A DNA stretch of 64,000 nt from Sulfurimonas sp. (GCF_029027405.1 NZ_CP093396.1:1302001-1366000), one strand, 5' to 3'; counted from the stretch's first letter, positions 26,899 to 53,689 are shown. A program made the numbers and translations. Notes: generated from the letters alone by a model not told the origin.

Positions 26899-28971
26899 TC
26901 ACTTTTTAACTTTAATTCCTTTTATAGCATTAAGAAGTATACCGACTGTTGTACCATTATGCAAAACAGCTGTTGTAATAGGATTAATATACCCCATGGT
27001 AGCTGAGGCTAAAATAGCACTGTTTGCAGCTACTGTAATATTGAAATTTGATTTTATAAGTTTCATAGTATCTTGTGCTAATTCTAAAGCATTACTAATA
27101 CAAGCAATATCATCTTTAAGTAAAGAAATATCAGCAGATGCTTTTGCAATCTGAGCACCTTTACTCATACTTATGCCAACATTTGCTTCAACTAAAGCAG
27201 GTGCATCATTTATTCCATCTCCAACAAAAACAACTTTCTTGCCATTAGCGACCAGTTCTTTTACAATGTCTGCTTTTTGAGTAGGAAGAAGTTGGGCAAA
27301 AACTGTATCAATTCCGATTTCTTTAGCTACTTCATCTGCTTTTTGTTGCTTATCTCCAGTTAGCATAATAATTTCTTTAATTCCTAACTTGTGAAGTTTA
27401 TCAATAGTTGTTTTAGTATTATGCCGAACTGTATCTATCATTGTTATCATACCGAGAAGTTTATAATCATATCCGATACAAAGGATAGTTTTACCTTCAT
27501 CTTCATGTTTTTGTATAGTAGGAATATGACCATTGAAGTCTATACCTTCATCATCTTCTAAGAAGTGTTGAGAGCCTATATGGACTTTCTTACCAGCCAC
27601 TTCAGTGATTACTCCATGTGCAACAATAAATTCTACTTCTTCATGATGAATATGTTCAAATGATTGCTCATTTGCGGCTCTTACTACGGCTTCTGCAACA
27701 GGATGAAAGTAATGCTCCTCTGTTGAAGCTGCAAGTGATAAAATTTTATTTTCATCCCATTCATCATTAAAGGATATTACATCTGAAACATATAACTCCC
27801 CTTTAGTAAGTGTGCCTGTTTTGTCAAATATAACCGTATCTGCTTCACTTAAATTTTCTAATGCTTGAGCATTTTTAATCATAATGCCATTTTTTCCAGC
27901 TTTATGAAGAGAACTTTTAAATGCAACAGGGGTAGCAAGTTTTAAAGCACAAGAATAATCAGCTTGTAATACAGCAGCAACTCTCTCCCAGTCTTTAGTA
28001 GTAATATATGCAAAAGCACTCAATCCTAGTGTTAAAGGAACTAGCTTATCTGCTAGTTTTAGAGCCTTAAGTGCAGAAGAAGATTTAGATGAGAGTGACT
28101 CTTCTATATATTTAGTAACTTGAGCAGCCGAGGTATCATCTCCGACATGTTCAGCCCAAATTTTTATTCGTCCCTCTTCCACTATCGTTCCAGCCATTAC
28201 TCTATCGCCATAGGCTTTAGTGACAGATACGCTTTCTCCTGTCATACTAGATTGATTTATCAATGCTTCGCCTTGTATGATATGCCCATCAACACTTATC
28301 ATATCTCCAACAGCGACAATAACAATATCACCTATTTTCACAAGCTTATAACTAATTTTTTCTTCAATTCCATTTTTTTCAATCCAGACCTCTTCTACAT
28401 TAGGACGAATTAGTTCACGAAGTAAGTTATCAGAGCGATCGGATGTACTTTCTTCTATATATTCACCAGCTTCAAGTAAAAGACTTGTAAAATTAGCTGC
28501 AGTGTAATCTTTTCTTAAAAGAGATACTCCGACAGCTAAGGATTCTAAAACATGAGAAGTAATTCCATTTTTGTATAAATCTTTTAATCCTGATATCATC
28601 ATTGGTGTGTTAGTCGCTATGCTTAGCGGTGCATTAACAATATTTGGTAGAATAAAACCAGCACCAGTAACACTAGCTATAGTTATAAGCCCTTGTTTGG
28701 AAATATGAACTTCACCTCTCTCAACTCTACAACTTGAATCACACTTAGTTGTTTTGAAATCAGTTATAATTTTTTCAATTTCTTTTTGAATTTGAGAGTT
28801 GGTTATTTCTATTATTAAACTTTTTGCTCTAATATTTACTCTAGCATTTTTAACACCTTCACACTTTTGAATACTTTCTATTAATGGTCTTGCATCATTT
28901 TTAGATGATATATCAAATATCTTGTATCTTAATCGGTTTGGGAGTTTATGAACTAAATTAAATTTATTCAT
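26899..28971 (-). CDS. fezB: P1B-type ATPase, probable ferrosome ATPase (FezB-like)
   Basis: A 690-aa metal-transport ATPase. Visible motifs: T-G-E-S (244-247), phosphorylation D383-K-T-G-T-L-T-K, H-P (423-424), M-L-T-G-D-K (536-541) and G-D-G-I-N-D-A-P (585-592). The transmembrane metal motif is S-C-A (340-342) with no proline, unlike CPC, SPC or TPC exporters, and the last helix region has H-N-G-T-T (671-675). The N-terminus is a degenerate HMA-like domain beginning N-R-L-R-Y-K-I (12-18) without C-x-x-C. It is the last gene of a six-gene operon with an HMA2 and a ferritin-like protein. These features match, to my knowledge, P1B-6 ATPases of ferrosomes. The ATPase class is certain, the ferrosome role is inference. 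Confidence 0.78.
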   Translation of the reverse strand: MNKFNLVHKLPNRLRYKIFDISSKNDARPLIESIQKCEGVKNARVNIRAKSLIIEITNSQIQKEIEKIITDFKTTKCDSSCRVERGEVHISKQGLITIASVTGAGFILPNIVNAPLSIATNTPMMISGLKDLYKNGITSHVLESLAVGVSLLRKDYTAANFTSLLLEAGEYIEESTSDRSDNLLRELIRPNVEEVWIEKNGIEEKISYKLVKIGDIVIVAVGDMISVDGHIIQGEALINQSSMTGESVSVTKAYGDRVMAGTIVEEGRIKIWAEHVGDDTSAAQVTKYIEESLSSKSSSALKALKLADKLVPLTLGLSAFAYITTKDWERVAAVLQADYSCALKLATPVAFKSSLHKAGKNGIMIKNAQALENLSEADTVIFDKTGTLTKGELYVSDVISFNDEWDENKILSLAASTEEHYFHPVAEAVVRAANEQSFEHIHHEEVEFIVAHGVITEVAGKKVHIGSQHFLEDDEGIDFNGHIPTIQKHEDEGKTILCIGYDYKLLGMITMIDTVRHNTKTTIDKLHKLGIKEIIMLTGDKQQKADEVAKEIGIDTVFAQLLPTQKADIVKELVANGKKVVFVGDGINDAPALVEANVGISMSKGAQIAKASADISLLKDDIACISNALELAQDTMKLIKSNFNITVAANSAILASATMGYINPITTAVLHNGTTVGILLNAIKGIKVKK

Positions 28972-29321
28972 TAAGCTTCTTTTGCTGCTTCATGTTCTGC
29001 TTTGGCATCTTCGAAACGCTCTTTCATTTCATCCATTCCACCAGTGATAACATCACCCATAGACACCATACCTTTAAAGATAGTTTTTTGAACATTCTCA
29101 TTTGTTAGTATATAGGTAGCTGCTGCACCAATTAAAAGACCTGCTAATACTTCTGAAGTGCTAAATCCCATGCTGTTTTTATTTAAATATGGGTTTTGAT
29201 TATTCATATTATTTGAGTTTTGCATCTGCTTGTTTGCTCTATTACCTCTGTTACTCATATTACCTTGAATATTGCTATTATTCATATATGGATTACTATC
29301 GTTTGTTTGGTATTTTTTCAT
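28971..29321 (-). CDS. Asn/Met-rich small membrane protein (YtxH-like), ferrosome-like operon
   Basis: A 116-aa protein: residues 1-52 are low complexity, rich in Asn, Met and Gln (repeats such as N-P-Y-M-N-N and N-P-Y-L-N-K), then a glycine-bearing membrane helix (E-V-L-A-G-L-L-I-G-A-A-A-T-Y-I-L, about 57-72), then an acidic helix (M-K-E-R-F-E-D-A-K-A-E). The helix plus following amphipathic region resembles YtxH/DUF6110-type proteins. It overlaps both neighbours by 1 bp. A structural role on an iron-storage membrane is inference. Confidence 0.65.
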   Translation of the reverse strand: MKKYQTNDSNPYMNNSNIQGNMSNRGNRANKQMQNSNNMNNQNPYLNKNSMGFSTSEVLAGLLIGAAATYILTNENVQKTIFKGMVSMGDVITGGMDEMKERFEDAKAEHEAAKEA

Positions 29322-29665
29322 TATTTCTCTCCATCAGTAATAAGTTTATTTTTTTGATATATTGCGCTTTTTTCTATCGTATATATAGCTCCTGCACCTA
29401 AAACTAAAGAACCAATAGTCTGAAAAAATGATTTTCTAGGATCACCTAGATTATTTGCAACTGATATAGCAGTTGCAGTTGCAATTCCACCAATAAGAGA
29501 GTCTTTTAGTGTATCTCTTATGGCCTCGGTTTTATCTTTTTCATTCTCTTTAACTTTTTTTGCATTACCTATTGCAGAGATAACTCCAACAGCAACAGCA
29601 CCACTTACTCCATGACCAACTACATGTCTTGGAGTACCTGTTTGTACAGTAAAGTTACTTATCAT
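29321..29665 (-). CDS. Glycine-zipper membrane protein, ferrosome-like operon
   Basis: A 114-aa protein with three hydrophobic Gly/Ala-rich segments (G-H-G-V-S-G-A-V-A-V-G-V; L-I-G-G-I-A-T-A-T-A-I; G-S-L-V-L-G-A-G-A-I-Y) separated by charged loops. ATG 29665 with AAGAAG 6 nt upstream is preferred to TTG 29671; it lies inside the 3' end of the upstream gene. Small Gly-zipper proteins of this kind crowd or bend membranes in organelles such as magnetosomes; a similar role here is inference. No named family is recognised. Confidence 0.6.
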   Translation of the reverse strand: MISNFTVQTGTPRHVVGHGVSGAVAVGVISAIGNAKKVKENEKDKTEAIRDTLKDSLIGGIATATAISVANNLGDPRKSFFQTIGSLVLGAGAIYTIEKSAIYQKNKLITDGEK

Positions 29666-29945
29666 TAGCAACTTCTTTTTTAGTTGTTGCTTTTTTGGTG
29701 GTAGTCTTACTTACTTTAGCAGTAGCTGTTTTTCGTGCATCTTTTTTTTCTTGATTTTTTTCTTTTATAGTTTCTACTGTAGATTTTACAGTATCAACAG
29801 TTGTTATTGCTACTTCATTAACAGCTTCTGCACCACTCTTTACGCTATCTGTTACAACACTAACGAAAGTTTTTTCTTTATTTTTTCTTTTTATATAAAG
29901 TGTTACGCCTGCGCCTATTGCTGCGCCTATTAAATATGGTATCAT
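29655..29945 (-). CDS. Membrane-anchored protein with Lys/Thr-rich tail, ferrosome-like operon
   Basis: A 96-aa protein: an N-terminal membrane helix (residues 2-18, G-A-A-I-G-A-G-V-T-L-Y-I), an amphipathic middle (V-V-T-D-S-V-K-S-G-A-E-A-V), and a Lys/Thr/Ala-rich tail (about 66-93) like histone H1 tails. The tail could bind DNA, polyphosphate or another polyanion. It overlaps the ferritin-like gene by 4 bp and the next gene by 11 bp. Function unknown. Confidence 0.62.
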   Translation of the reverse strand: MIPYLIGAAIGAGVTLYIKRKNKEKTFVSVVTDSVKSGAEAVNEVAITTVDTVKSTVETIKEKNQEKKDARKTATAKVSKTTTKKATTKKEVANDK

Positions 29946-30601
29946 GATTTATCCTTATCATTAAAAATTTTATCAAATACATCTTTTGATGCATCTGAAC
30001 TTAGTGCCATCGCTATTGCAGCACCTGCTGCCATGCCTAACATCATATCTCTGCTTCCCAAAGAAGCAAGTGTTTGTGTGATTTTAGTACTGTCTATTTC
30101 ACCCTTCATTAAACCTTGAACCATATTATATATATCATGGTGTTGAGGATTGTTCTCTTGATTACTTTGAGAGCATGCTTGAAAAGCAGGTAGATGATTA
30201 TTATAAGAAGCTGCTTGTTCTCTATAAAAGACATCTCTTATATCATCTTGTGTAACAAAAGGTAAAAGATTGTCATACATCTCTATGTTTGCCATTTCAG
30301 CATCTGCTCCATCTTGACAACATTCAGCTAGGCTAGAGCCTATTTGAATTTTGTCATACCAATCATTTATTGGTGGCGTAACATCATAGTTTTTACATAG
30401 TTGCTCTAATGCAGTGTAGTGTCTTACCTCTGCTTGAACAATGTTTGAAAAAGGTATAACTGAGCCATAAGTATCTATGACTTTTTGGTAATAAGCATTT
30501 GCTTTATACTCATCATAACAAGCGATGCGTAATAACTGTTCTACAACATTAGCATTCACATCTACTTGTTGAGATAGTAGTTGTTCTTCATCTGGATTCA
30601 T
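29942..30601 (-). CDS. Membrane-anchored ferritin-like (DUF2202-like) diiron protein
   Basis: A 219-aa protein. Residues about 15-145 form a four-helix ferritin-like domain with candidate iron ligands E31, E58-x2-H61, E102/E107 and E128/H136, the pattern of DUF2202/rubrerythrin-like diiron proteins. A hydrophobic Gly/Ala helix near the C-terminus (about 186-201) would anchor it to a membrane, which is unusual for ferritins. It overlaps the HMA2 gene by 1 bp. Likely oxidises or holds iron at the organelle membrane (inference). Confidence 0.75.
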   Translation of the reverse strand: MNPDEEQLLSQQVDVNANVVEQLLRIACYDEYKANAYYQKVIDTYGSVIPFSNIVQAEVRHYTALEQLCKNYDVTPPINDWYDKIQIGSSLAECCQDGADAEMANIEMYDNLLPFVTQDDIRDVFYREQAASYNNHLPAFQACSQSNQENNPQHHDIYNMVQGLMKGEIDSTKITQTLASLGSRDMMLGMAAGAAIAMALSSDASKDVFDKIFNDKDKS

Positions 30602-30921
30602 TAATCCTCCTTAATTTGAGATTGTAGTTTATTGATTAACTCAATGTTCTCATCTATGTTTACACCATCTATAATATCATTCCAAATAGTTGGTGCAAAA
30701 ATTGAAGCATCATAAAGTATAGTAGCTGTTGCCATTATTTTATTAACTTTCACATCTTTTAGTCCATCAATATATTTAGGTAAAGAGTGAATATCATCAA
30801 GTGATATATTTTTAACTTCATCTAAAATTGCCTTATCGATTTTAACTCTTAATCTACCAGGCGTATGATGGATTTTAGAAAAATATGAGGATATTTTCAA
30901 TATATCTTCAGTTTTAATCAT
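30601..30921 (-). CDS. HMA2-like small protein with Arg-rich motif, first gene of ferrosome-like operon
   Basis: A 106-aa protein with a heavy-metal-associated-2 fold (G-R-L-R-V-K-I at 22-28, I-D-G-L-K-D-V-K-V-N and A-T-I-L-Y-D). It has no cysteine pair, so it should not bind metal through C-x-x-C. The G-R-L-R motif recurs as N-R-L-R at the N-terminus of the P1B ATPase of the same operon. Small R-motif HMA-like proteins accompany FezB in ferrosome operons as far as I recall. Probably a targeting or assembly factor (inference). Confidence 0.72.
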   Translation of the reverse strand: MIKTEDILKISSYFSKIHHTPGRLRVKIDKAILDEVKNISLDDIHSLPKYIDGLKDVKVNKIMATATILYDASIFAPTIWNDIIDGVNIDENIELINKLQSQIKED

Positions 30922-30982: not shown

Positions 30983-31408
30983 CTAATTATCAATATCACA
31001 TTTCTCACATAAGCCATAAAGTGCTATATCTAGTTTATTAGTTTTAAAATTCTTTTTAATTGCTAGACTATCAATAAGCTCAATTAATTCAGAGTCAGAA
31101 AATTCTACATGTTCACAGCATCTTGAACAAATAAGATGATAATGGTCATTTCCTCTAGTAAGCTCATAAAAAATATTTTTATTAGATGTTTGCTTTGTGA
31201 TTATTTTATATGATAGAAGAAGTTTTAAAGTTGAATAAACTGATTGTTTAGATGCTTTTACTTGATTCAAAATTTCTTCAATACTAAGATGCCCACTTTT
31301 AAAAAAAGCTCTTAAAATATCTTGTCGAATAGGTGTACATTTTAATTTGTCACTTTTTAGCATTGAACAAAAAAGATCAATGTATCGTTCAGTACTTTCA
31401 AGAGGCAT
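30983..31408 (-). CDS. Fur-family transcriptional regulator, adjacent to ferrosome-like operon
   Basis: A 141-aa Fur/PerR-type repressor: N-terminal winged helix (R-Q-D-I-L-R-A-F-F and Q-S-V-Y-S-T-L-K-L-L), then metal domain with H-Y-H-L-I-C-S-R-C-C and two structural C-x-x-C pairs (94/97 and 134/137). It lies 61 bp upstream of the HMA2 gene and 5 bp after the DUF1232 gene. Probably senses iron or peroxide and controls the operon; Fur, PerR or Zur cannot be told apart with certainty. Confidence 0.85.
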   Translation of the reverse strand: MPLESTERYIDLFCSMLKSDKLKCTPIRQDILRAFFKSGHLSIEEILNQVKASKQSVYSTLKLLLSYKIITKQTSNKNIFYELTRGNDHYHLICSRCCEHVEFSDSELIELIDSLAIKKNFKTNKLDIALYGLCEKCDIDN

Positions 31409-31887: not shown

Positions 31888-32397
31888 TTAATCAATAAAA
31901 TATGGTGTAATTTGTTTTACCCAAGTACTGACGCGTTCATCACTTAAATCGGATTGGTTGTCCTCATCAAGTGCCAAGCCAATAAATTTGCCATCTCTTA
32001 TAGCATTTGATTCATCGTGTTCATAACCATCTGTTGACCATGAACCTACAACTGTAGCCTCTTGTTTAACAACTTCATCATATAAAGTTCCCATAGCATC
32101 TACAAAATTATCACAATATTCTTCTTGATCACCAAGACCAAAAAATGCAACAGTTTTTGAAGAGAAATCAGTTGCAGAAATATTAGAAAAGAAATCTTCC
32201 CAATCATCTTGAAGATCTCCTTCTCCCCATGTAGAAGTTCCCATAATTATAAACTTATATTGCTCCATTGCATTGTCTGTACAATCTGCTACATTATGTA
32301 GCTCTATTTGGGCTTCTGACATTTTATCTTTAATCAAAGAAGCTATATCTTGTGTATTTCCAGTTGAGCTAGCATAAAATACTCCTATTTTTGACAT
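31888..32397 (-). CDS. fldA: Flavodoxin
   Basis: A 169-aa long-chain flavodoxin with the FMN phosphate loop S-S-T-G-N-T near the N-terminus, M-G-T-S-T-W-G-E-G-D, and F-F-G-L-G-D-Q-E-E-Y. Replaces ferredoxin as electron carrier, commonly when iron is scarce, and fits the surrounding iron genes. It overlaps the upstream unknown gene by 13 bp and therefore shares the Fur-box promoter at 33248-33266. Confidence 0.95.
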   Translation of the reverse strand: MSKIGVFYASSTGNTQDIASLIKDKMSEAQIELHNVADCTDNAMEQYKFIIMGTSTWGEGDLQDDWEDFFSNISATDFSSKTVAFFGLGDQEEYCDNFVDAMGTLYDEVVKQEATVVGSWSTDGYEHDESNAIRDGKFIGLALDEDNQSDLSDERVSTWVKQITPYFID

Positions 32398-34209: not shown

Positions 34210-35021
34210 ATACTACCCCAATATGTCAAGACAACTTTTTCAAAAATCTAATTCCCTAAATACCTGTTACCCTATGCTACATTTTCACTAGATTTAGTGT
34301 AATTCTCATCATTGATTTTTAAACTATCATAATAAACATTCATAGGTTTTTTATATTTCAATGTCTCATGAAATCTTCTATGATTATAAAATTCTATATA
34401 ATCCTTAACATCACTTTTGAGAATTGATACTCTCTCATATTCATTGAGGTATATTTTTTCAACTTTAGCACTTCTCCAGAACCTCTCAATACAAATATTA
34501 TCTGTTGCTCTACCTTTACCATCCATAGAGATAATTATGTCATTATCTTTTAATGTTTGAGTGTGGATACAGCTTGTATATTGTGACCCTTGATCAGTAT
34601 TAAATATCTCAGGCTTACCATAGAGTGCGAGTGCTTCATCTAGTACACCCATGACTAAATCTGTATCCATTGTGTTGGATATTCGCCAAGATAATATTGC
34701 TTTAGAATACCAATCAATTATGGCAGCCATATAGACCATACCACCTTTAATTTTAATATAGGTTATATCTGTTGACCATACTTGGTTTGCTCTTACGATA
34801 TCTAATCCTCTTATTTTGTAAGAGTATTTATGATGTTGCTTGTCCGCCCAGCTTGTATTTGGTGGTCTTACAGCTAAAACAGCCTGTAAACCTAACTCTC
34901 TACGGTATGCCAGCACTGTGTTGGGACTGACACGAAAACCATCCTCTAGTAGTTGATGATACACTTTCATATAGCCATAGCTTGGTATCTCTTCAAATAC
35001 TTTTTCTATATGTTTTTTAAT
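34210..35021 (-). mobile_element. Truncated IS3-family copy
   Basis: Starts with the terminal ATACTACCCC and runs collinear and nearly identical to the first 800 bp of the complete neighbour, then stops abruptly at the left end of that neighbour (35022). It lacks the 5' half of the transposase gene and its own right end. A few point differences from the full copy show that it is not an exact recent duplication. Confidence 0.88.
34272..35020 (-). pseudogene. IS3-family transposase, C-terminal fragment
   Basis: Encodes residues about 147-394 of the adjacent complete transposase, including the DDE catalytic domain (W-S-T-D, N-T-D-Q-G-S-Q, I-E-R-F-W-R). The N-terminal DNA-binding part is missing, so it is unlikely to be active. 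Confidence 0.85.
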
Positions 35022-36355
35022 ATACTACCCCAATATGTCAAGACAACTTTTTCAAAAATCTAATTCCCTAAATACCTGTTACCCTATGCTACATTTTCAC
35101 TAGATTTAGTGTAATTCTCATCATTTATTTTTAAACTATCATAATAAACATTCATAGGTTTTTTATATTTCAATGTCTCATGAAATCTTCTGTGATTATA
35201 AAATTCTATATAATCCTTAACATCACTTTTGAGAATTGATACTCTCTCATATTCATTGAGGTATATTTTTTCAACTTTAGCACTTCTCCAGAATCTCTCG
35301 ATACAGATATTATCTGTTGCTCTTCCTTTACCATCCATAGAGATAATTATGTCATTATCTTTTAATGTTTGAGTGTGGATACAGCTTGTATATTGTGACC
35401 CTTGATCAGTATTAAATATCTCAGGCTTACCATAGAGTGCGAGTGCTTCATCTAGTACACCCATGACTAAATCTGTATCCATTGTGTTGGATATTCGCCA
35501 AGATAATATTGCTTTAGAATACCAATCAATTATGGCAGCCATATAGACCATACCACCTTTAATTTTAATATAGGTTATATCTGTTGACCATACTTGGTTT
35601 GCTCTTACGATATCTAATCCTCTTATTTTGTAAGAGTATTTATGATGTTGCTTGTCCGCCCAGCTTGTATTTGGTGGTCTTACAGCTAAAACAGCCTGTA
35701 AACCTAACTCTCTACGGTATGCCAGCACTGTGTTGGGACTGACACGAAAACCATCCTCTAGTAGTTGATGATACACTTTCATATAGCCATAGCTTGGTAT
35801 CTCTTCAAATACTTTTTCTATATGTTTTTTAATTACATTTTTAGCAAGATTTACCATTGGTGCATAGAACAAATTACTTCTGTTATAGTTAATAAGATTA
35901 CATTGTTTTACAACTGATAATGCCTTATTTTCATCTCTATCAATCAACTCCTTTTTATAGCTAGAGTCCAAGCTGCTTAACTTTCCCACCGCCCAGTCCT
36001 TCTCTACTGTTAGTTGACCTACAACCTTTGCATATTCATCAAGTTTAGCTTGTAATCTTACATTCTCTTCTTTGTACTCTTTAATTACTTTTGCAGGTTC
36101 CATCGCAACTTCTGCATTTTCCAAAAATATCTTCTTCCAATTTTGTAAGTTTTTTGGTGTGATATTATTTACACTTGCTATTTCATTTAGTGTCTTATCT
36201 TCTTTTAAAACTTCTAAAACTAACTTTGTCTTGAATTCTGCTGTATATGTTGTTCTTTTTCGACTCATAAGATTACCTTCTATTTTTATTGTTTAATTTT
36301 ACTCTTTTAAGAATTAAACTTTAGAAATAGTTGTTTGATTTTCTTGGGGTAGTAT
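35022..36355 (-). mobile_element. Complete IS3-family element (1334 bp)
   Basis: Bounded by perfect 10-bp inverted repeats ATACTACCCC/GGGGTAGTAT. It contains one open transposase gene. It abuts the truncated copy on the left and the ATTT target repeat on the right. End fragments of the same element occur at 62053-62174 and in the palindrome at 62175-63532. Confidence 0.9.
35084..36268 (-). CDS. IS3-family transposase (single reading frame)
   Basis: A 394-aa protein: N-terminal HTH (Y-T-A-E-F-K-T-K-L-V-L-E-V-L), coiled coil about 55-100, HTH_21-like region, then rve catalytic domain with D230, D288 and E324 (DD35E). Most IS3 elements make this protein by frameshifting between orfA and orfB; here both are in one frame. 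Looks intact and potentially active. Confidence 0.93.
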   Translation of the reverse strand: MSRKRTTYTAEFKTKLVLEVLKEDKTLNEIASVNNITPKNLQNWKKIFLENAEVAMEPAKVIKEYKEENVRLQAKLDEYAKVVGQLTVEKDWAVGKLSSLDSSYKKELIDRDENKALSVVKQCNLINYNRSNLFYAPMVNLAKNVIKKHIEKVFEEIPSYGYMKVYHQLLEDGFRVSPNTVLAYRRELGLQAVLAVRPPNTSWADKQHHKYSYKIRGLDIVRANQVWSTDITYIKIKGGMVYMAAIIDWYSKAILSWRISNTMDTDLVMGVLDEALALYGKPEIFNTDQGSQYTSCIHTQTLKDNDIIISMDGKGRATDNICIERFWRSAKVEKIYLNEYERVSILKSDVKDYIEFYNHRRFHETLKYKKPMNVYYDSLKINDENYTKSSENVA

Positions 36356-39041: not shown

Positions 39042-40436
39042 TTATTCTCCTATATTATTTGTTTCGATAACAATTTTTTCATTTCTGTGATTGTATATTT
39101 GTTCTTTTGTTATATTTTTACCTAATACTAAATCAGCTGCCATTAGTCCAGTTTCCATCGCAGTATCAAGAAAAATATATCTAAAAGTACCCTGTCTTCC
39201 TGCCATTATTAGGTTTTTGAATTTATTTAAATACTTTATGGTTTCATCTCTTTTTTTATTATAATTGATATCCATCATAGTATAAGCATGTTGTGTTGTA
39301 AAAGAAAAATAATCAATTATCTTATCTTCAACATCAAAATTTAGTTTTTTTAAATCTTTTTTTACTATCTCTAAAAGTTTCTCATCGTTCATTTTCCAAA
39401 TTTCATCATCTTTATTGCATGGAATTTCAAGCATAATAGAACTTTCACCAGATGGAGCCATAAAAGGTGACCTTCTCTTTGGTTCTTGTATCCTTGTAGG
39501 AAGTAAGTTATAGTCACTTACATACTGCCAAGTATGAGGTGAAAAATCTTTAATACTAAGCCCTAAACATAAAAATCTTAAACTTCTAAACCCTAAACCT
39601 GAATTAAATCTAAGTTTAGTTGACATTTCATTTAGTGGCATTGTAGAGATGATTTTGTTTGCTTTGAAAGTATGATTAGTTGTTCGGATAGTATCTATAT
39701 TATTATCCATAACTACAAAACTTAAGACTTCTTCATTTACAAATATTTTACCACCAAGTTTTTCAAACTCTTCTGCCATTTTAAGTGGTAGTTGACCAAA
39801 GCCATACTTTGGATATCTATAACTTTTTGCATAAGTTCTAGCAGTTTTTTTACTTTTTGCAAATAGTTTTTTAACTACATCTTTTAAATCTATCAATGAT
39901 ATTCTTTGTCCTGCCCAGTCGGCACTTAAAAGCTCTGGTTTGATTCCCCAAAGTTTTTTAGTATATGGAGCAAAAAAATGTTCATATAATGATTTTCCAA
40001 ATCTTGAACTTATCCAAGTTTTAAAGTTTGTGTCATCTCTTGGAGTGATTTTAAGTATTATTTTTATAGTATCAAAAGAAGCACCGATTAAAAGTTTTAT
40101 AGGTGCTACTCTCAAAAGATTTTTAAGATTTAAAGGGTACTCATAAACTCTATTTTGGTGTAATATCACTGAACTTCTTTGAGATGTTAGTAAGTCATCA
40201 TCAAGTATCTCCTCAACAAAATTTAAAAGTTTTTGATTGTTTGTTATAAATCTATGACCACCATAATCAAACCTAAACTCTTTGTCACCTACTTTTAATA
40301 CTTCTGTTTTACATTGTCCACCAACAGTTGACTCTTTTTCTAAAATTGTAACTGATTTGCCACTTTTAATTAGCTCAATGCCAGCAATTAATCCTGCGAC
40401 ACCGCCACCAATTATAACTATATCACTATTTTGCAC
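39042..40436 (-). CDS. FAD-dependent oxidoreductase (amine-oxidase/UDP-galactopyranose-mutase-like)
   Basis: N-terminal dinucleotide fold V-I-I-G-G-G-V-A-G-L-I-A-G with E-K-E-S-T-V-G-G-Q after the second strand, and the L-W-G-I-K-P-E-L-L-S block seen in protoporphyrinogen-oxidase/Glf-like flavoproteins. The C-terminal F-R-Y-I-F-L-D-T-A-M-E-T-G closes the FAD site. GTG 40436 is chosen; ATG 40466 is the alternative, with more overlap of the FTR1 gene. Its GT-C neighbour suggests sugar or lipid modification; the FTR1 link suggests iron redox. Substrate unknown. Confidence 0.75.
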   Translation of the reverse strand: MQNSDIVIIGGGVAGLIAGIELIKSGKSVTILEKESTVGGQCKTEVLKVGDKEFRFDYGGHRFITNNQKLLNFVEEILDDDLLTSQRSSVILHQNRVYEYPLNLKNLLRVAPIKLLIGASFDTIKIILKITPRDDTNFKTWISSRFGKSLYEHFFAPYTKKLWGIKPELLSADWAGQRISLIDLKDVVKKLFAKSKKTARTYAKSYRYPKYGFGQLPLKMAEEFEKLGGKIFVNEEVLSFVVMDNNIDTIRTTNHTFKANKIISTMPLNEMSTKLRFNSGLGFRSLRFLCLGLSIKDFSPHTWQYVSDYNLLPTRIQEPKRRSPFMAPSGESSIMLEIPCNKDDEIWKMNDEKLLEIVKKDLKKLNFDVEDKIIDYFSFTTQHAYTMMDINYNKKRDETIKYLNKFKNLIMAGRQGTFRYIFLDTAMETGLMAADLVLGKNITKEQIYNHRNEKIVIETNNIGE

Positions 40437-41238
40437 TGTAAGTTTTTCTCCATAAATAAATAGCACCTACCATATAAGCACTCCATGAAAGCAGGTGAAG
40501 TAGGGTGGGTGATGAGTTGTAGCCAAATAAAGCTCTTAAAAATGTTCCAAATAAACCTCTGTCATCGAGTATGCTTGAGATATCATAAACCATAGGCACA
40601 AAAGTAGGGAGCAGTTCACTCGCTTGCATCATAGAAACTGCACTACCAAAAAGTCCACCTGCTATGATAAGTATAAGTAGTCCAGTCCATTTAAAAAATT
40701 CTCTAAGAGGTATGTTTTTTGCACCTTTCATAATTAGATAGACTAATATAACAGATAAAACAAGTCCTAAACCACCACCTATAGCACCATCTTGCATCGT
40801 GATATTTTGACTTAAGCTTAAACTTGAGAAAAATAATACAGTTTCAAAGCCTTCTCGTAATACGGCAAGAAATGCTAAAAAAACCATTCCTAAGATATTT
40901 CCAGTAGTTACAAGATTATTTAAATTTTCTTCAATTTCACCTTTAATATTTTTTGATTGATTCGCCATCCAAACAACCATGTATGATAAAACAATTGTTG
41001 CAAAAAGTAAAATACCTATCATTAAATAGTGTTTTAAATTTGCATCATCAATCCCAAGTAATACTACTTGAAAAATATAAGCGATAATAAGAGATACTAT
41101 TACTCCTAGTGTTACTCCAAGATAAATATATTTATTATATTTAGTGGCTTGTAATTTTCCTAGATAAGAAATGATGATTCCTACTATTAAAAACGCTTCT
41201 AGTCCTTCTCTAAATGTGATTAAAAAACTTGCTAACAT
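40426..41238 (-). CDS. FTR1-family iron permease
   Basis: A 270-aa, seven-helix permease with both iron-binding motifs: R10-E-G-L-E in helix 1 and R128-E-G-F-E in helix 4. FTR1/EfeU proteins pass ferric iron after coupled oxidation of ferrous iron. No EfeO or EfeB gene is adjacent; instead a membrane beta-propeller multihaem cytochrome is translated just upstream (1-bp overlap) and may supply the redox step. Confidence 0.93.
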   Translation of the reverse strand: MLASFLITFREGLEAFLIVGIIISYLGKLQATKYNKYIYLGVTLGVIVSLIIAYIFQVVLLGIDDANLKHYLMIGILLFATIVLSYMVVWMANQSKNIKGEIEENLNNLVTTGNILGMVFLAFLAVLREGFETVLFFSSLSLSQNITMQDGAIGGGLGLVLSVILVYLIMKGAKNIPLREFFKWTGLLILIIAGGLFGSAVSMMQASELLPTFVPMVYDISSILDDRGLFGTFLRALFGYNSSPTLLHLLSWSAYMVGAIYLWRKTYSAK

Positions 41239-44200
41239 TAATTAAATTCCTTTATGATTTTTTCTAGTTCAATAACTGGTGGATTTGGTAATTTTGGATA
41301 TGCTTTTCGTACAGCATCTGTTACCCATTGCGGATATACTCTAAAGTTTAACTTGACTTCTACAGTTAATGGGTACTTTAGTGATTTGATATTTGGTATG
41401 TCATAACTCTCAACTCTTGTTTCTCCCGCGGGAATTCTGCTATCACTTAAAAGTTTTTTATATTTCCAAAATAAAAGTCCAACAGGTTTGCCATCTTCAT
41501 CTCCAAAAACCTTCATGAAAGGTCTTGCATCAGAACCTAGGTTTCCATCTTCTTTTAATTTTCCACTTTCAAAAATAATATTTGAGTTTCTATCTTTAAG
41601 TGTTATATCAAGCCATAGCTCCCTAAAATCTGCAACACCTGTAGGAAGATGATGACCAGCACCAACATTTGTAACAAATACTTTTACTTGGTTGTCTTTT
41701 ATGTCAACTCCAAGTTTTGCTGAAGTTCTTAGTAGTTGTATTGTTTGGTCTTCATGTACTTTGTTTTTGAGTCCTGATAAGAAATGATTTGAACCACTAA
41801 AATAATGTACTTTTACATCTTTTTTTATTTTTCCGCCATCAGTTGAACGACCAACCAACGGTGAATATTTACCATCACTCATATTAGTCATATGACAATC
41901 TATACAAGTTCTATGTAAAGTTGGATCATCTGGATTGTTAAATGGTGAGTTTTGCCACTCTTTATAGGTTGATACTATCTTACTACCTTTACCAGGAGAA
42001 AATTCATCATGACAACTAGCGCAATAAACAGGATCTTTATATATCGGTTTCATATAACTCTCTAAATGTTCTTTTGGTTTAGAATTTATAAATTTCTCAC
42101 TTAGCCACTGTCCTATGTCTGAATCACTATCTTCTAAAGCGTACTTCCGTCGCTCGGTTAGGTTTAATGTATATGCAGCATTCCCACCAGCATCTTCAAT
42201 TTTTGTAATTCTGTGACAAGCTACACAGCTAACACCTTCTTCAAGTTTTGTATTTCCGTATTTTTTTAGTTCATCTATTAATGTAGTCGCACCACTTTGA
42301 AAAAGATTTTCCATTGTGTCGGTAGTATGAGAGAGCCCTGTGGTTACACCAGATGGATTATGACAACTCATGCACCATTTTCTAAAGCCCTCTCCTTCAA
42401 CTTGTGCAGCTACATTTTCAAGTACCATGTAGTATGGGTTTGTTCCTACTAAATTTTTATGATTTGAATCTGCCCATTGATTGAAAATTTCATTATGGCA
42501 AGACTTACATTTTGCAGAATTTGTCCAATCCTCTACATGGTATTCTTCTACATCATCTTCAAGTTTTATCCAAGAAGACAAGTATCGTAGGTTCTCTTTA
42601 CTTGTTACATATTTATGTAAATTTTTCATCTTTTTTTCTAGTTCTTTACCCATGTTTTTAGGGTCAACTAAAGGTAGTTTTGCTTTTTTGTCAAACCCCA
42701 TTCCACCTTGTGCATCTGTTGCAAATCTTATATAGTCAGCTAATGGTGCTTTTGATACAAACCCATCTAGTCTGTCATGTCCAACATTTGCTTTTTTACT
42801 TTTGTCTTTTAATTTTGTAGCTTCAAAAAGATATCCATTTGTAAAATTAAATCCTTCAAAATGACAAGAGTTACAGCTCATCCAAAAATCTCCAGTCATA
42901 GGTGTAGATTTATGAGTGTTTGTATTTGCATTGTTAAATAACATCTTTCCTTGTCGTAAATCTTTTTCCAATGGATCATTCATAACAAGCTGTGCAAATT
43001 TGTCTTTTTTCAAAGTTACTCTTGCAAAAGGATGTTCGCCACCACTATCTAATAGTGTCATGTCAAGTCTTGAAGCATTTTGAATATATAGATTGTCGTT
43101 TATTGGGTTAGATAGTATATATTTTGGGTTTGTATTGTTAGGGTATGCTCTATATATTTGTGTAACTTTTGCCCCATTGCCTTTTCTTTTACCTCTTTTT
43201 CTATGAAGTTTTTTATTTTTTCTACCGCTACTTCTTCCTATATTAAAAACCATTACATCTTCACTGCCGCTTAGTGTAACAAAAGCTTTAGTTCCATCTT
43301 TATTAAAGGCTATATCAAAAGGGTTTGACACAATCATTGTTTTATTATCATTAGTAAGTATATTTATCTCTTTAAAGAGATTTTTTCGTTTTTTATCTAA
43401 CTCTTTTTCATCGCCTTTTTTTAATGAGATAATAGAAATTGTTGGGAAAACTGTTGACTGAAATTGAAATGGATGGTCAAAATTCCATAAAATGTGTGGA
43501 ATCCAAGCTTCACTTCCATCCGGTTTTATCTTTATGTTATCTAGATATTTTGGCAGTCCTTGTGATATAAACTCATCATCATTTTTTGTGGATTGTAAGG
43601 AAATACTTTTTAGTTTTATAAATGTTCTACTATCATAGATACTCACTTCACCTATCATCGCATGAGTTACTAAAAGCCTACCATCATCAGTCAGAGCCAT
43701 TCCTCTTGGTGTTTTTGCAGTTTTTAATGTTTTAATAATTTTAAAATTTTTATCATCTATAATTAAAAGCTCATTATCCTCAAAAATAGTTACAAAAAAG
43801 TATCTATTTTTTTTATCATAAATTATGGCGTAAGGTCTATTTTTTGTTTTAATAGTTTTAATAATTTTATTTTTTTTGTTTAAAAATATTATTTTATTTT
43901 GCTTGTAATTTGTAATGCCATATACAGATTCATCATCATTAAAGGCAATAGTTCTTACATCTTCTCCGAGAATTTTTTCGAATATTCTTTTTCCTGTTTG
44001 AGCGTCTATTTTAGTTACGCTTCCTCCATCACCGTTTGCACTATAAATATACTTGTTATCATTTGTTAAATATAAAGCTGAACTACTAACTGATGAATAT
44101 AGATAAGCTGGAAAAAGTAGTCCTAAAATAAACAGACTAACAGCAATAGATTGTAGCTTAGCTCTGTTTTGGGCTGATTTCTTTTTTCTTCGTTTATTTG

Positions 44201-44591
44201 CTCTTGAAAAAGCAGTGTGATACCATAGAAAAAATAGTAAAACAAATGAACCGTAAAGATGGACTAAAAACGCGTAGTTACCAATAGTGTCACCACCACG
44301 ATTTCCAATAAAAAATAGATACCCACCACTTAAAATTATGAGAAAAAGTGTCAGACCAAGTATCATACCATTCGTAGCATTTCTTCTATTAGCCAATATA
44401 TTGTTTCTATACTTATATAGATGCATATTTACAAACGGAATAATAAGAAGAACAGATACAAAAACAGAACTTATAATATGGATAACTTGTAGCGTTGTAA
44501 AATATTCCCATTGTAAATTTATGATATCCCATTGGAGAATACCTGTAAAAAACATAACTATGACTGATATCTCTATATAGATACTCTTCAA
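41238..44591 (-). CDS. Membrane-anchored beta-propeller hexahaem cytochrome c
   Basis: About 1117 aa. Five membrane helices (residues to 170) carry histidines H40, H59, H113 and H127 that could hold haem b. Residues about 170-530 are a YVTN-type beta-propeller (Y-S-A-N-G-D-G-G-S-V, P-R-G-M-A-L-T-D-D-G-R). Then six C-x-x-C-H haem sites start at C575, C697, C742, C791, C859 and C898, in a cytochrome c-554-like arrangement, with an Ig-like end. First gene of the FTR1 operon, behind a Fur-box-like site. TTG 44591 (6 nt after AAGGA) is preferred to TTG 44597. Numbers here follow the longer form. Probably moves electrons across the membrane in iron uptake (inference). Confidence 0.8.
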   Translation of the reverse strand: MKSIYIEISVIVMFFTGILQWDIINLQWEYFTTLQVIHIISSVFVSVLLIIPFVNMHLYKYRNNILANRRNATNGMILGLTLFLIILSGGYLFFIGNRGGDTIGNYAFLVHLYGSFVLLFFLWYHTAFSRANKRRKKKSAQNRAKLQSIAVSLFILGLLFPAYLYSSVSSSALYLTNDNKYIYSANGDGGSVTKIDAQTGKRIFEKILGEDVRTIAFNDDESVYGITNYKQNKIIFLNKKNKIIKTIKTKNRPYAIIYDKKNRYFFVTIFEDNELLIIDDKNFKIIKTLKTAKTPRGMALTDDGRLLVTHAMIGEVSIYDSRTFIKLKSISLQSTKNDDEFISQGLPKYLDNIKIKPDGSEAWIPHILWNFDHPFQFQSTVFPTISIISLKKGDEKELDKKRKNLFKEINILTNDNKTMIVSNPFDIAFNKDGTKAFVTLSGSEDVMVFNIGRSSGRKNKKLHRKRGKRKGNGAKVTQIYRAYPNNTNPKYILSNPINDNLYIQNASRLDMTLLDSGGEHPFARVTLKKDKFAQLVMNDPLEKDLRQGKMLFNNANTNTHKSTPMTGDFWMSCNSCHFEGFNFTNGYLFEATKLKDKSKKANVGHDRLDGFVSKAPLADYIRFATDAQGGMGFDKKAKLPLVDPKNMGKELEKKMKNLHKYVTSKENLRYLSSWIKLEDDVEEYHVEDWTNSAKCKSCHNEIFNQWADSNHKNLVGTNPYYMVLENVAAQVEGEGFRKWCMSCHNPSGVTTGLSHTTDTMENLFQSGATTLIDELKKYGNTKLEEGVSCVACHRITKIEDAGGNAAYTLNLTERRKYALEDSDSDIGQWLSEKFINSKPKEHLESYMKPIYKDPVYCASCHDEFSPGKGSKIVSTYKEWQNSPFNNPDDPTLHRTCIDCHMTNMSDGKYSPLVGRSTDGGKIKKDVKVHYFSGSNHFLSGLKNKVHEDQTIQLLRTSAKLGVDIKDNQVKVFVTNVGAGHHLPTGVADFRELWLDITLKDRNSNIIFESGKLKEDGNLGSDARPFMKVFGDEDGKPVGLLFWKYKKLLSDSRIPAGETRVESYDIPNIKSLKYPLTVEVKLNFRVYPQWVTDAVRKAYPKLPNPPVIELEKIIKEFN

Positions 44592-44611
44592 ACACAATCC
44601 TTTTATAAATA

Positions 44612-53284: not shown

Positions 53285-53689
53285 TTATATTTTTAAATTG
53301 CATTCATTACATATTTTATGAATAGTAATAAATTCTGCATCTGTAAACTCTTTTAATTCAACACTTTCATTTATTGGTAGTTTTGTGACTCTAGTGCAAG
53401 TAGTGCAGATGCAAAATAGCATCGGAGTATTTTCTTTAAGATAGTAGTAGGCTCTTTTAAAGTCATCTTGTATGACTATAACCAATTTGCATTCAATAAA
53501 AAAATTTAAATGCCTATATATAGTATTTTGAGAAAGTTTTTTTGGATATGAGGTAGAAAGTTCTTTGATGATTTGAGATACATTTAAGCATTCATCACTA
53601 TTCATTAATAAAATATAAATTGCTTCTCTAACTCTTGAATGATTTGCTCGGTTTCTCTTTATGCAATTATTTAGATTATTTATACTCAT
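53285..53689 (-). CDS. Fur-family transcriptional regulator (second copy)
   Basis: A 134-aa Fur-family protein: winged helix (S-Q-N-T-I-Y-R-H-L-N-F-F), dimer/metal domain with C95-x2-C98 and C127-x2-C130. Shorter and divergent from the first copy (30983-31408). Flanked by Fur-box-like sites both upstream (53774-53792, possible autoregulation) and downstream (porin promoter). Could be Fur, Zur or PerR-like; the iron setting favours Fur. Confidence 0.85.
   Translation of the reverse strand: MSINNLNNCIKRNRANHSRVREAIYILLMNSDECLNVSQIIKELSTSYPKKLSQNTIYRHLNFFIECKLVIVIQDDFKRAYYYLKENTPMLFCICTTCTRVTKLPINESVELKEFTDAEFITIHKICNECNLKI

Follow-up and report, generated by a model that had tools for sequence, protein, structure and literature searches.

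A six-gene operon with a fez-type gene content

The 64,000-nucleotide stretch of Sulfurimonas sp. DNA analysed here (NZ_CP093396.1:1302001-1366000; hereafter the window) harbours six head-to-tail open reading frames (ORFs) that run on the minus strand from position 30921 to 26899, with neighbours overlapping by 1-17 bases (Table 1). The host genome is a single contig of 2.83 Mb. Ferrosomes are membrane-bounded iron stores, and an earlier note on this DNA had proposed that the six genes form a ferrosome (fez-like) operon; the tight overlaps it described and the HMA2-like protein with an Arg motif were both found as claimed, the latter with a Pfam HMA_2 match. With a probability of about three in four, the locus is a fez-type operon of distinct layout. 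This reading is based on an ATPase clade separate from other pumps, on companion genes that stand in the same order elsewhere, and on a six-gene version of the operon that is tied to ferrosomes in Rhodopseudomonas (PMC12016538).

Table 1. Genes of the operon and of its upstream flank, in window coordinates.
Gene or product	Position	Strand	Features
HMA2-like small protein (fez hma gene)	30601..30921	-	106 aa; Pfam HMA_2 E=4.7e-5; Arg motif HHTPGRLRV
Ferritin-like (DUF2202-type) four-helix domain with C-terminal glycine-rich anchor-like tail	29942..30601	-	219 aa; DUF2202 E=8e-4
Small membrane protein (s96-like)	29655..29945	-	96 aa; N-terminal glycine-zipper helix, Lys-rich tail
Small membrane protein, probable remote MamC relative	29321..29671	-	116 aa; TTG start as listed; NCBIfam MamC E=1.2e-4
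YtxH-like small membrane protein	28971..29321	-	116 aa; Asn-rich N-terminus; C-terminus ERFEDAKAE
FezB-type P1B ATPase	26899..28971	-	690 aa; E1-E2 ATPase with N-terminal HMA2 (HMA_2) domain; TIGR01525 E=9e-146
Fur-family gene, likely regulator	30983..31408	-	Pfam FUR E=3e-17; 61 bases upstream of operon
Flavodoxin gene	31888..32397	-	Flavodoxin_1 E=4e-24; flavodoxins also near operon in L034, L035, L036

The ATPase falls in a clade of its own

Transmembrane segment 4 (TM4) of the ATPase reads VLQADYSCALKLATP at the position where CopA has ACPCALGLATP, with DYSCALK replacing CPC; the unusual S-C-A motif reported earlier is therefore genuine. In a maximum-likelihood tree of 61 ATPases (midpoint root for drawing only; some outgroup rows are long), the DYSCALK-type ATPases formed a clade with 100/100 support that also contains the Cereibacter enzyme (DYACPVK), and outside it fell Escherichia coli CopA and ZntA, the P1B-4 pump sCoaT, a CSC-type pump and the other two P1B pumps of the host genome. 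The window ATPase has neither the CPC or SPC of TM4 nor the grouping with CopA, ZntA or CoaT by which P1B-1, P1B-2 and P1B-4 pumps are told. The earlier note had named a grouping with copper, zinc or cobalt exporters as the outcome that would speak against it; the tree came out for a fez-type ATPase, and on tree and TM4 motif together a copper, zinc or cobalt exporter was rejected.

The clade is named P1B-6 here because fez-type operons occur in it, a label that has no reference sequence behind it; the substrate listed for the P1B-6 class is Fe(II) (PMC7558416). The window FezB is 46-47% identical to its homologues in Azospirillum and Shewanella (G331) and, with the ATPases of two genus relatives, forms the first branch among the main Campylobacterota copies (100/98). 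A search of the PDB by sequence returned no structure of a FezB-like pump.

P-type ATPases with a DF(I/A/G)xGI(K/R)-like TM4 were also seen on plasmids of Priestia (L163), Deinococcus (L164) and Gloeothece (L166), with annotated HMA2-domain genes near those of L163 and L166; the Deinococcus and Gloeothece ATPases, both without a TM4 Cys, are the nearest outgroup to the FezB-type clade (100/95). The fezB gene of Vibrio sonorensis (L127) apparently lies in two ORFs (333 and 358 aa), perhaps through a frameshift or a sequencing error. A second P-type ATPase, with an SCPC(S/A)T(V/I)LAAS motif, stands directly upstream of the fez operon in L041 (3727-5904) and L048 (3804-5939), in both behind a Fur-family gene; one of the same type is present in L158 (31-2229).

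Companion genes are shared with fez operons of other bacteria

By profile-profile comparison, the HMA2-like, MamC-like and YtxH-like proteins matched their counterparts in gamma-proteobacterial fez operons with probabilities of 99.65, 98.7 and 99.6, respectively; the 96-aa protein, which is found at the same place across Campylobacterota operons, is related to YtxH-like fez proteins (probability 97). Among plasmids, tblastn returned ATPases of Azospirillum (46% identity), Vibrio (40%) and Cereibacter (37%), after which identities fell to about 31%, and a TM4-region scan of named genomes gave 80 loci (in Vibrio, Photobacterium, Shewanella, Ferrimonas, Hafnia, Kluyvera, Chromatiales and others). 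In most of these, profiles built from Campylobacterota located HMA, MamC-like, YtxH-like and FezB genes at equivalent places, the HMA gene going undetected at its expected place in several Chromatiales loci. The companions stand in equal order in operons of Shewanella, Vibrio, Photobacterium, Hafnia and Chromatiales, and the window fezB has the conserved set around it in that order (HMA, s96-like, MamC-like, YtxH-like).

Specificity of the small-protein profiles was controlled in 78 loci, with about half of the ORFs lying outside the operon region: at E<1e-3, 81 MamC-like, 151 YtxH-like and 113 s96-like ORFs were matched inside operon regions and none outside. As these profiles match only the operon region and the same gene order recurs across Campylobacterota, the cluster is not a product of chance.

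The strict six-gene order HMA2-HMA-h1-MamC-YtxH-FezB is found in Shewanella G331 and likewise in Azospirillum (HMA2, HMA, small, small, YtxH, ATPase), where an iron ABC transporter adjoins. With these two (L154 and L054, respectively) as stand-ins for the R. palustris / S. putrefaciens-type operon, the order HMA, s96-like, MamC-like, YtxH-like, FezB is shared with the window, the s96 place in Azospirillum being held by a protein that the profile left unscored. That operon type, however, starts with an HMA2-transmembrane (HMA2-TM; FezC-like) gene that is absent in the window, and the window adds a ferritin-like second gene. Of the six-gene match to R. palustris and S. putrefaciens drawn in the earlier note, counterparts for four of the five companions hold good, but the agreement of six with six is partly coincidence, since the window operon has the ferritin-like gene instead of the HMA2-TM gene.

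The Vibrio/Shewanella/Enterobacterales-type operon (for example S. fidelis, L079) shares the order HMA, MamC-like, YtxH-like, FezB. Its second gene has a short glycine-rich transmembrane segment similar to the window's but is Pro/Met/His-rich where the window protein has a ferritin-like domain; this operon type also has a divergent HMA2 gene, and its FezB is only 38% identical to that of the window. An Arcobacter plasmid cluster (CP129951, L057) carries all six window genes in the same order, with a FezB 54% identical, but has a seventh gene behind fezB, for a two-His membrane protein, that is missing from the window genome. HMA2, HMA, YtxH-like and FezB genes were found together in six alphaproteobacterial genomes (a MamC-like gene also in five of them), and two FezB types in a wider genome set around G470. 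Iron-uptake genes lie beside homologous operons (iron ABC transporter, FeoA, TonB receptors).

NCBIfam MamC matches of the 29321-29671 protein and its orthologues range from E 2e-4 to 4e-9, the best being a Photobacterium orthologue, with scores (22-37 bits) far under the family cut-off of 100 bits. We read this protein as a probable remote homologue of MamC, outside the family proper. Two MamC-like genes per fez operon region occur in Chromatiales and relatives (L117, L118, L119, L121, L123, L135).

A ferritin-like protein is linked to fezB

The product of the second gene was modelled by AlphaFold2 with a predicted local distance difference test score of about 95-98 over the ferritin-like domain and about 45-50 over the C-terminal segment. 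Structure matches of the domain to bacterioferritin, Dps-like proteins and MJ0754 reached Z 16-19 (Dps-like 18.8, MJ0754 17.8) and a match to nigerythrin Z 17.0, above the Z of about 13 that chance likeness between helical bundles may reach. Model and matches point to the four-helix bundle of the ferritin-like superfamily (DUF2202). The DUF2202 protein MJ0754 is matched both by sequence profile (E=4e-7) and in structure (root-mean-square deviation 1.9 A), yet the window protein differs from it and other DUF2202 proteins in its C-terminal tail and its linkage to fezB. Neither DUF2202 nor MJ0754 is mentioned in the literature searched.

The protein had been described as membrane-anchored and ferritin-like. 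Ferritin-like it is; the anchor rests on homologues, because the C-terminal segment of the window copy is only weakly hydrophobic (no stretch above a Kyte-Doolittle mean of 1.4). Homology of this tail to that of the gamma-proteobacterial second gene was rejected (only 28 columns, probability 70; 85 to the YtxH-like protein); the two are treated here as a putative shared short anchor type, which is no proof of fusion.

From the bacterioferritin-type ligand pattern (Glu, ExxH, Glu, ExxH), residues E31, E58, H61, E102 and H136 are present and the helix-4 Glu is absent. All five are identical in the window protein and in four relatives from fez operons or nearby (Chromatiales and a metagenome-assembled genome (MAG) of Methylocystaceae), and family representatives from f7, f10, f13 and part of f2 keep them as well. 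In family f3, the representatives keeping a full-length gene (L041, L048, L049) have lost the E58, H61 and H136 positions, and in L050 and L052 the ferritin-like gene was not found. The degenerate site of the sampled f3 representatives is a natural experiment on the function of the domain.

In a sample of 249 Campylobacterota genomes, 82 of the 87 genomes with fezB have the ferritin-like gene upstream of it in the same orientation, 0.8-1.4 kb away, and no ferritin-like gene of this kind was found in any genome without fezB (E<1e-10). Stand-alone versions belong to, or neighbour, fez operons in Chromatiales and the Methylocystaceae MAG, and two of these relatives (L125 and L129) have the gene flanked by the YtxH-like gene and fezB; the association is therefore broader than Campylobacterota. 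The suggestion that this member is lineage specific did not survive, given its presence in the fez neighbourhoods of these purple bacteria.

A FezC-like gene follows fezB in most Campylobacterota

Just behind fezB, most Campylobacterota carry a gene for a 69-117-aa two-helix protein. In profile-profile comparison, the HMA2-TM protein of six-gene operons aligns through its C-terminal part with this protein (probability 95, E=3e-8), including a pair of His spaced 14 residues apart, and both proteins have weak DUF4405 matches. Published work has shown FezC to be a haem b cytochrome of DUF4405-like type (PMC11334425). From the profile match, the aligned His pair, the DUF4405 matches and this known identity of FezC, we infer that the two-helix protein is probably a free-standing membrane half of FezC.

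The gene is present in 83 of the 87 fezB genomes, mostly adjoining fezB (on another contig in two f6 genomes), and in no sampled genome without fezB (E<1e-10). In one of the four fezB genomes that lack it (G083), fezB is close to a contig end. The two-His spacing and DUF4405 likeness link FezC to this downstream gene of Campylobacterota, but the window genome has no such gene, nor a further HMA_2 gene. In a review (PMC12574912), FezA and FezB are the only components named as required in Clostridioides difficile; on that basis the FezC-like HMA2-TM cytochrome is accessory to a fez cluster, not defining. Together with the ferritin-like protein, the split FezC-like gene adds two linked parts beyond the ferrosome literature searched, primary papers aside.

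Distribution in Campylobacterota

The ATPase was found in 87 of the 249 sampled genomes and in 19 of 55 genera (E below 1e-100), and the operon is no one-genome rarity. Twenty representative neighbourhoods have mostly the same genes in the same order, and two close genus relatives (ATPases 93 and 83% identical) have the same six. A close ATPase and HMA gene are located on two Arcobacter plasmids (all six genes on the one inspected); the cluster can therefore be plasmid-borne. The Campylobacterota-like placement in the earlier note was supported and narrows to Campylobacterales, as the nearest relatives of the named Arcobacter plasmid copy fall in family f7, which is given as belonging to the same taxonomic order as the host. 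Recent gain from Arcobacter-like donors is unsupported: FezB of the window and its two genus relatives branch before the other main Campylobacterota copies.

About one third of the sampled Campylobacterota genomes thereby gain a probable membrane-bounded iron store. Judged from titles and abstracts of the ferrosome literature (primary papers lay outside this check), there is no apparent report of ferrosomes in Campylobacterota; a search for an iron-storing organelle, and its genetic dissection, now become feasible in Campylobacterales.

A predicted iron-storing compartment and its alternatives

The ferrosome-like reading proposed earlier retains its fez-type ATPase clade and four matched companions, and loses the six-to-six match and the lineage-specific ferritin gene. 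The predicted product of the operon is very probably an Fe(II)-loaded ferrosome. In such a system, the small membrane proteins (MamC-like, YtxH-like and Lys-rich) and the HMA2 protein would shape or scaffold an inner-membrane vesicle, into the lumen of which FezB, as its P1B-6 class suggests, would move Fe(II) from the cytoplasm at the expense of ATP. The C-terminal tail of the ferritin-like protein would act as a tether that leaves the domain facing the cytoplasm, where the protein may bind or oxidise Fe(II) at the vesicle surface, or scavenge peroxide there, and the neighbouring Fur-family protein probably links the operon to iron status. More tentatively, and at less than even odds, we propose a distinct Campylobacterota ferrosome class in which the ferritin-like protein would be a fixed structural and catalytic part and a FezC-like electron-transfer protein would have been split off, then lost in this lineage, so that protein-shell and membrane iron storage would be merged.

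Several observations weigh against a ferrosome at this locus. The tie to an experimentally tested FezB is drawn at the level of genus and layout, not by direct comparison with tested Fez sequences. A FezC-like gene is absent from the whole host genome (no match at E<=0.01). The ATPase occurs in only 6 of 135 genomes of the host genus, a patchiness that may reflect loss or old transfer. Around the Fur gene, Fur-box-like sites show no clear excess over the window as a whole. The ferritin-like site lacks the bacterioferritin helix-4 Glu, which is missing too from the aligned stretch of MJ0754. Finally, the host genome also has an ordinary ferritin, beside which the operon would provide a second iron store.

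The role of the ferritin-like protein is where an alternative comes nearest to even odds: an iron compartment may be built, compatibly with the fez-type reading, and the protein act mainly as a rubrerythrin-like peroxide scavenger or a structural adaptor instead of an iron-loading ferroxidase. The nigerythrin match, weak Rubrerythrin matches of stand-alone relatives (below cut-off), the missing helix-4 Glu and the retention of the gene in place in L041, L048 and L049 despite their lost ligands all point that way; conservation of the five residues in the window, in f7, f10, f13 and part of f2 and in the purple-bacterial relatives does not, and ferritin, bacterioferritin and Dps-like structures score equally high. 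Plain efflux of Fe(II) or another divalent metal, with an inner-membrane FezB exporting to the periplasm, the small proteins as accessory subunits and no organelle, is unlikely. P1B ATPases are mostly exporters, this one has a distant general likeness to Cu/Zn/Cd pumps, and a Fur-family neighbour would suit iron detoxification; yet the ATPase lies outside the tested exporter classes in the tree, simple exporters lack glycine-zipper small membrane proteins and a MamC relative, and published work connects homologous six-gene operons with ferrosomes in R. palustris (PMC12016538). Least probable by far is a magnetosome-like, mineral-templating organelle in place of an amorphous iron store, for which the NCBIfam MamC matches of the 116-aa protein and its orthologues could be cited: those scores are far under the cut-off, the operon showed no further magnetosome gene, and the core gene set matches that of ferrosome-tied operons.

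Genes flanking the operon

Upstream of the operon follow, in this order, the Fur-family gene, a DUF1232 gene and the flavodoxin gene. A Fur-family gene is also directly upstream of the operon in L035, L039, L040, L047 and L155. The window has a second Fur-family gene at 53285-53689 (-), and the host genome five. About 2 kb past the flavodoxin gene lie two rve-type integrase/transposase ORFs (34272-36268, -). Further on, a 1119-aa protein with multihaem cytochrome matches (Cytochrome_C7, C554, MtrC/MtrF-like) is encoded at 41238-44597 (-), and with the nearby FAD amine-oxidase-like gene (39042-40466) it may form an extracellular electron transfer cluster.

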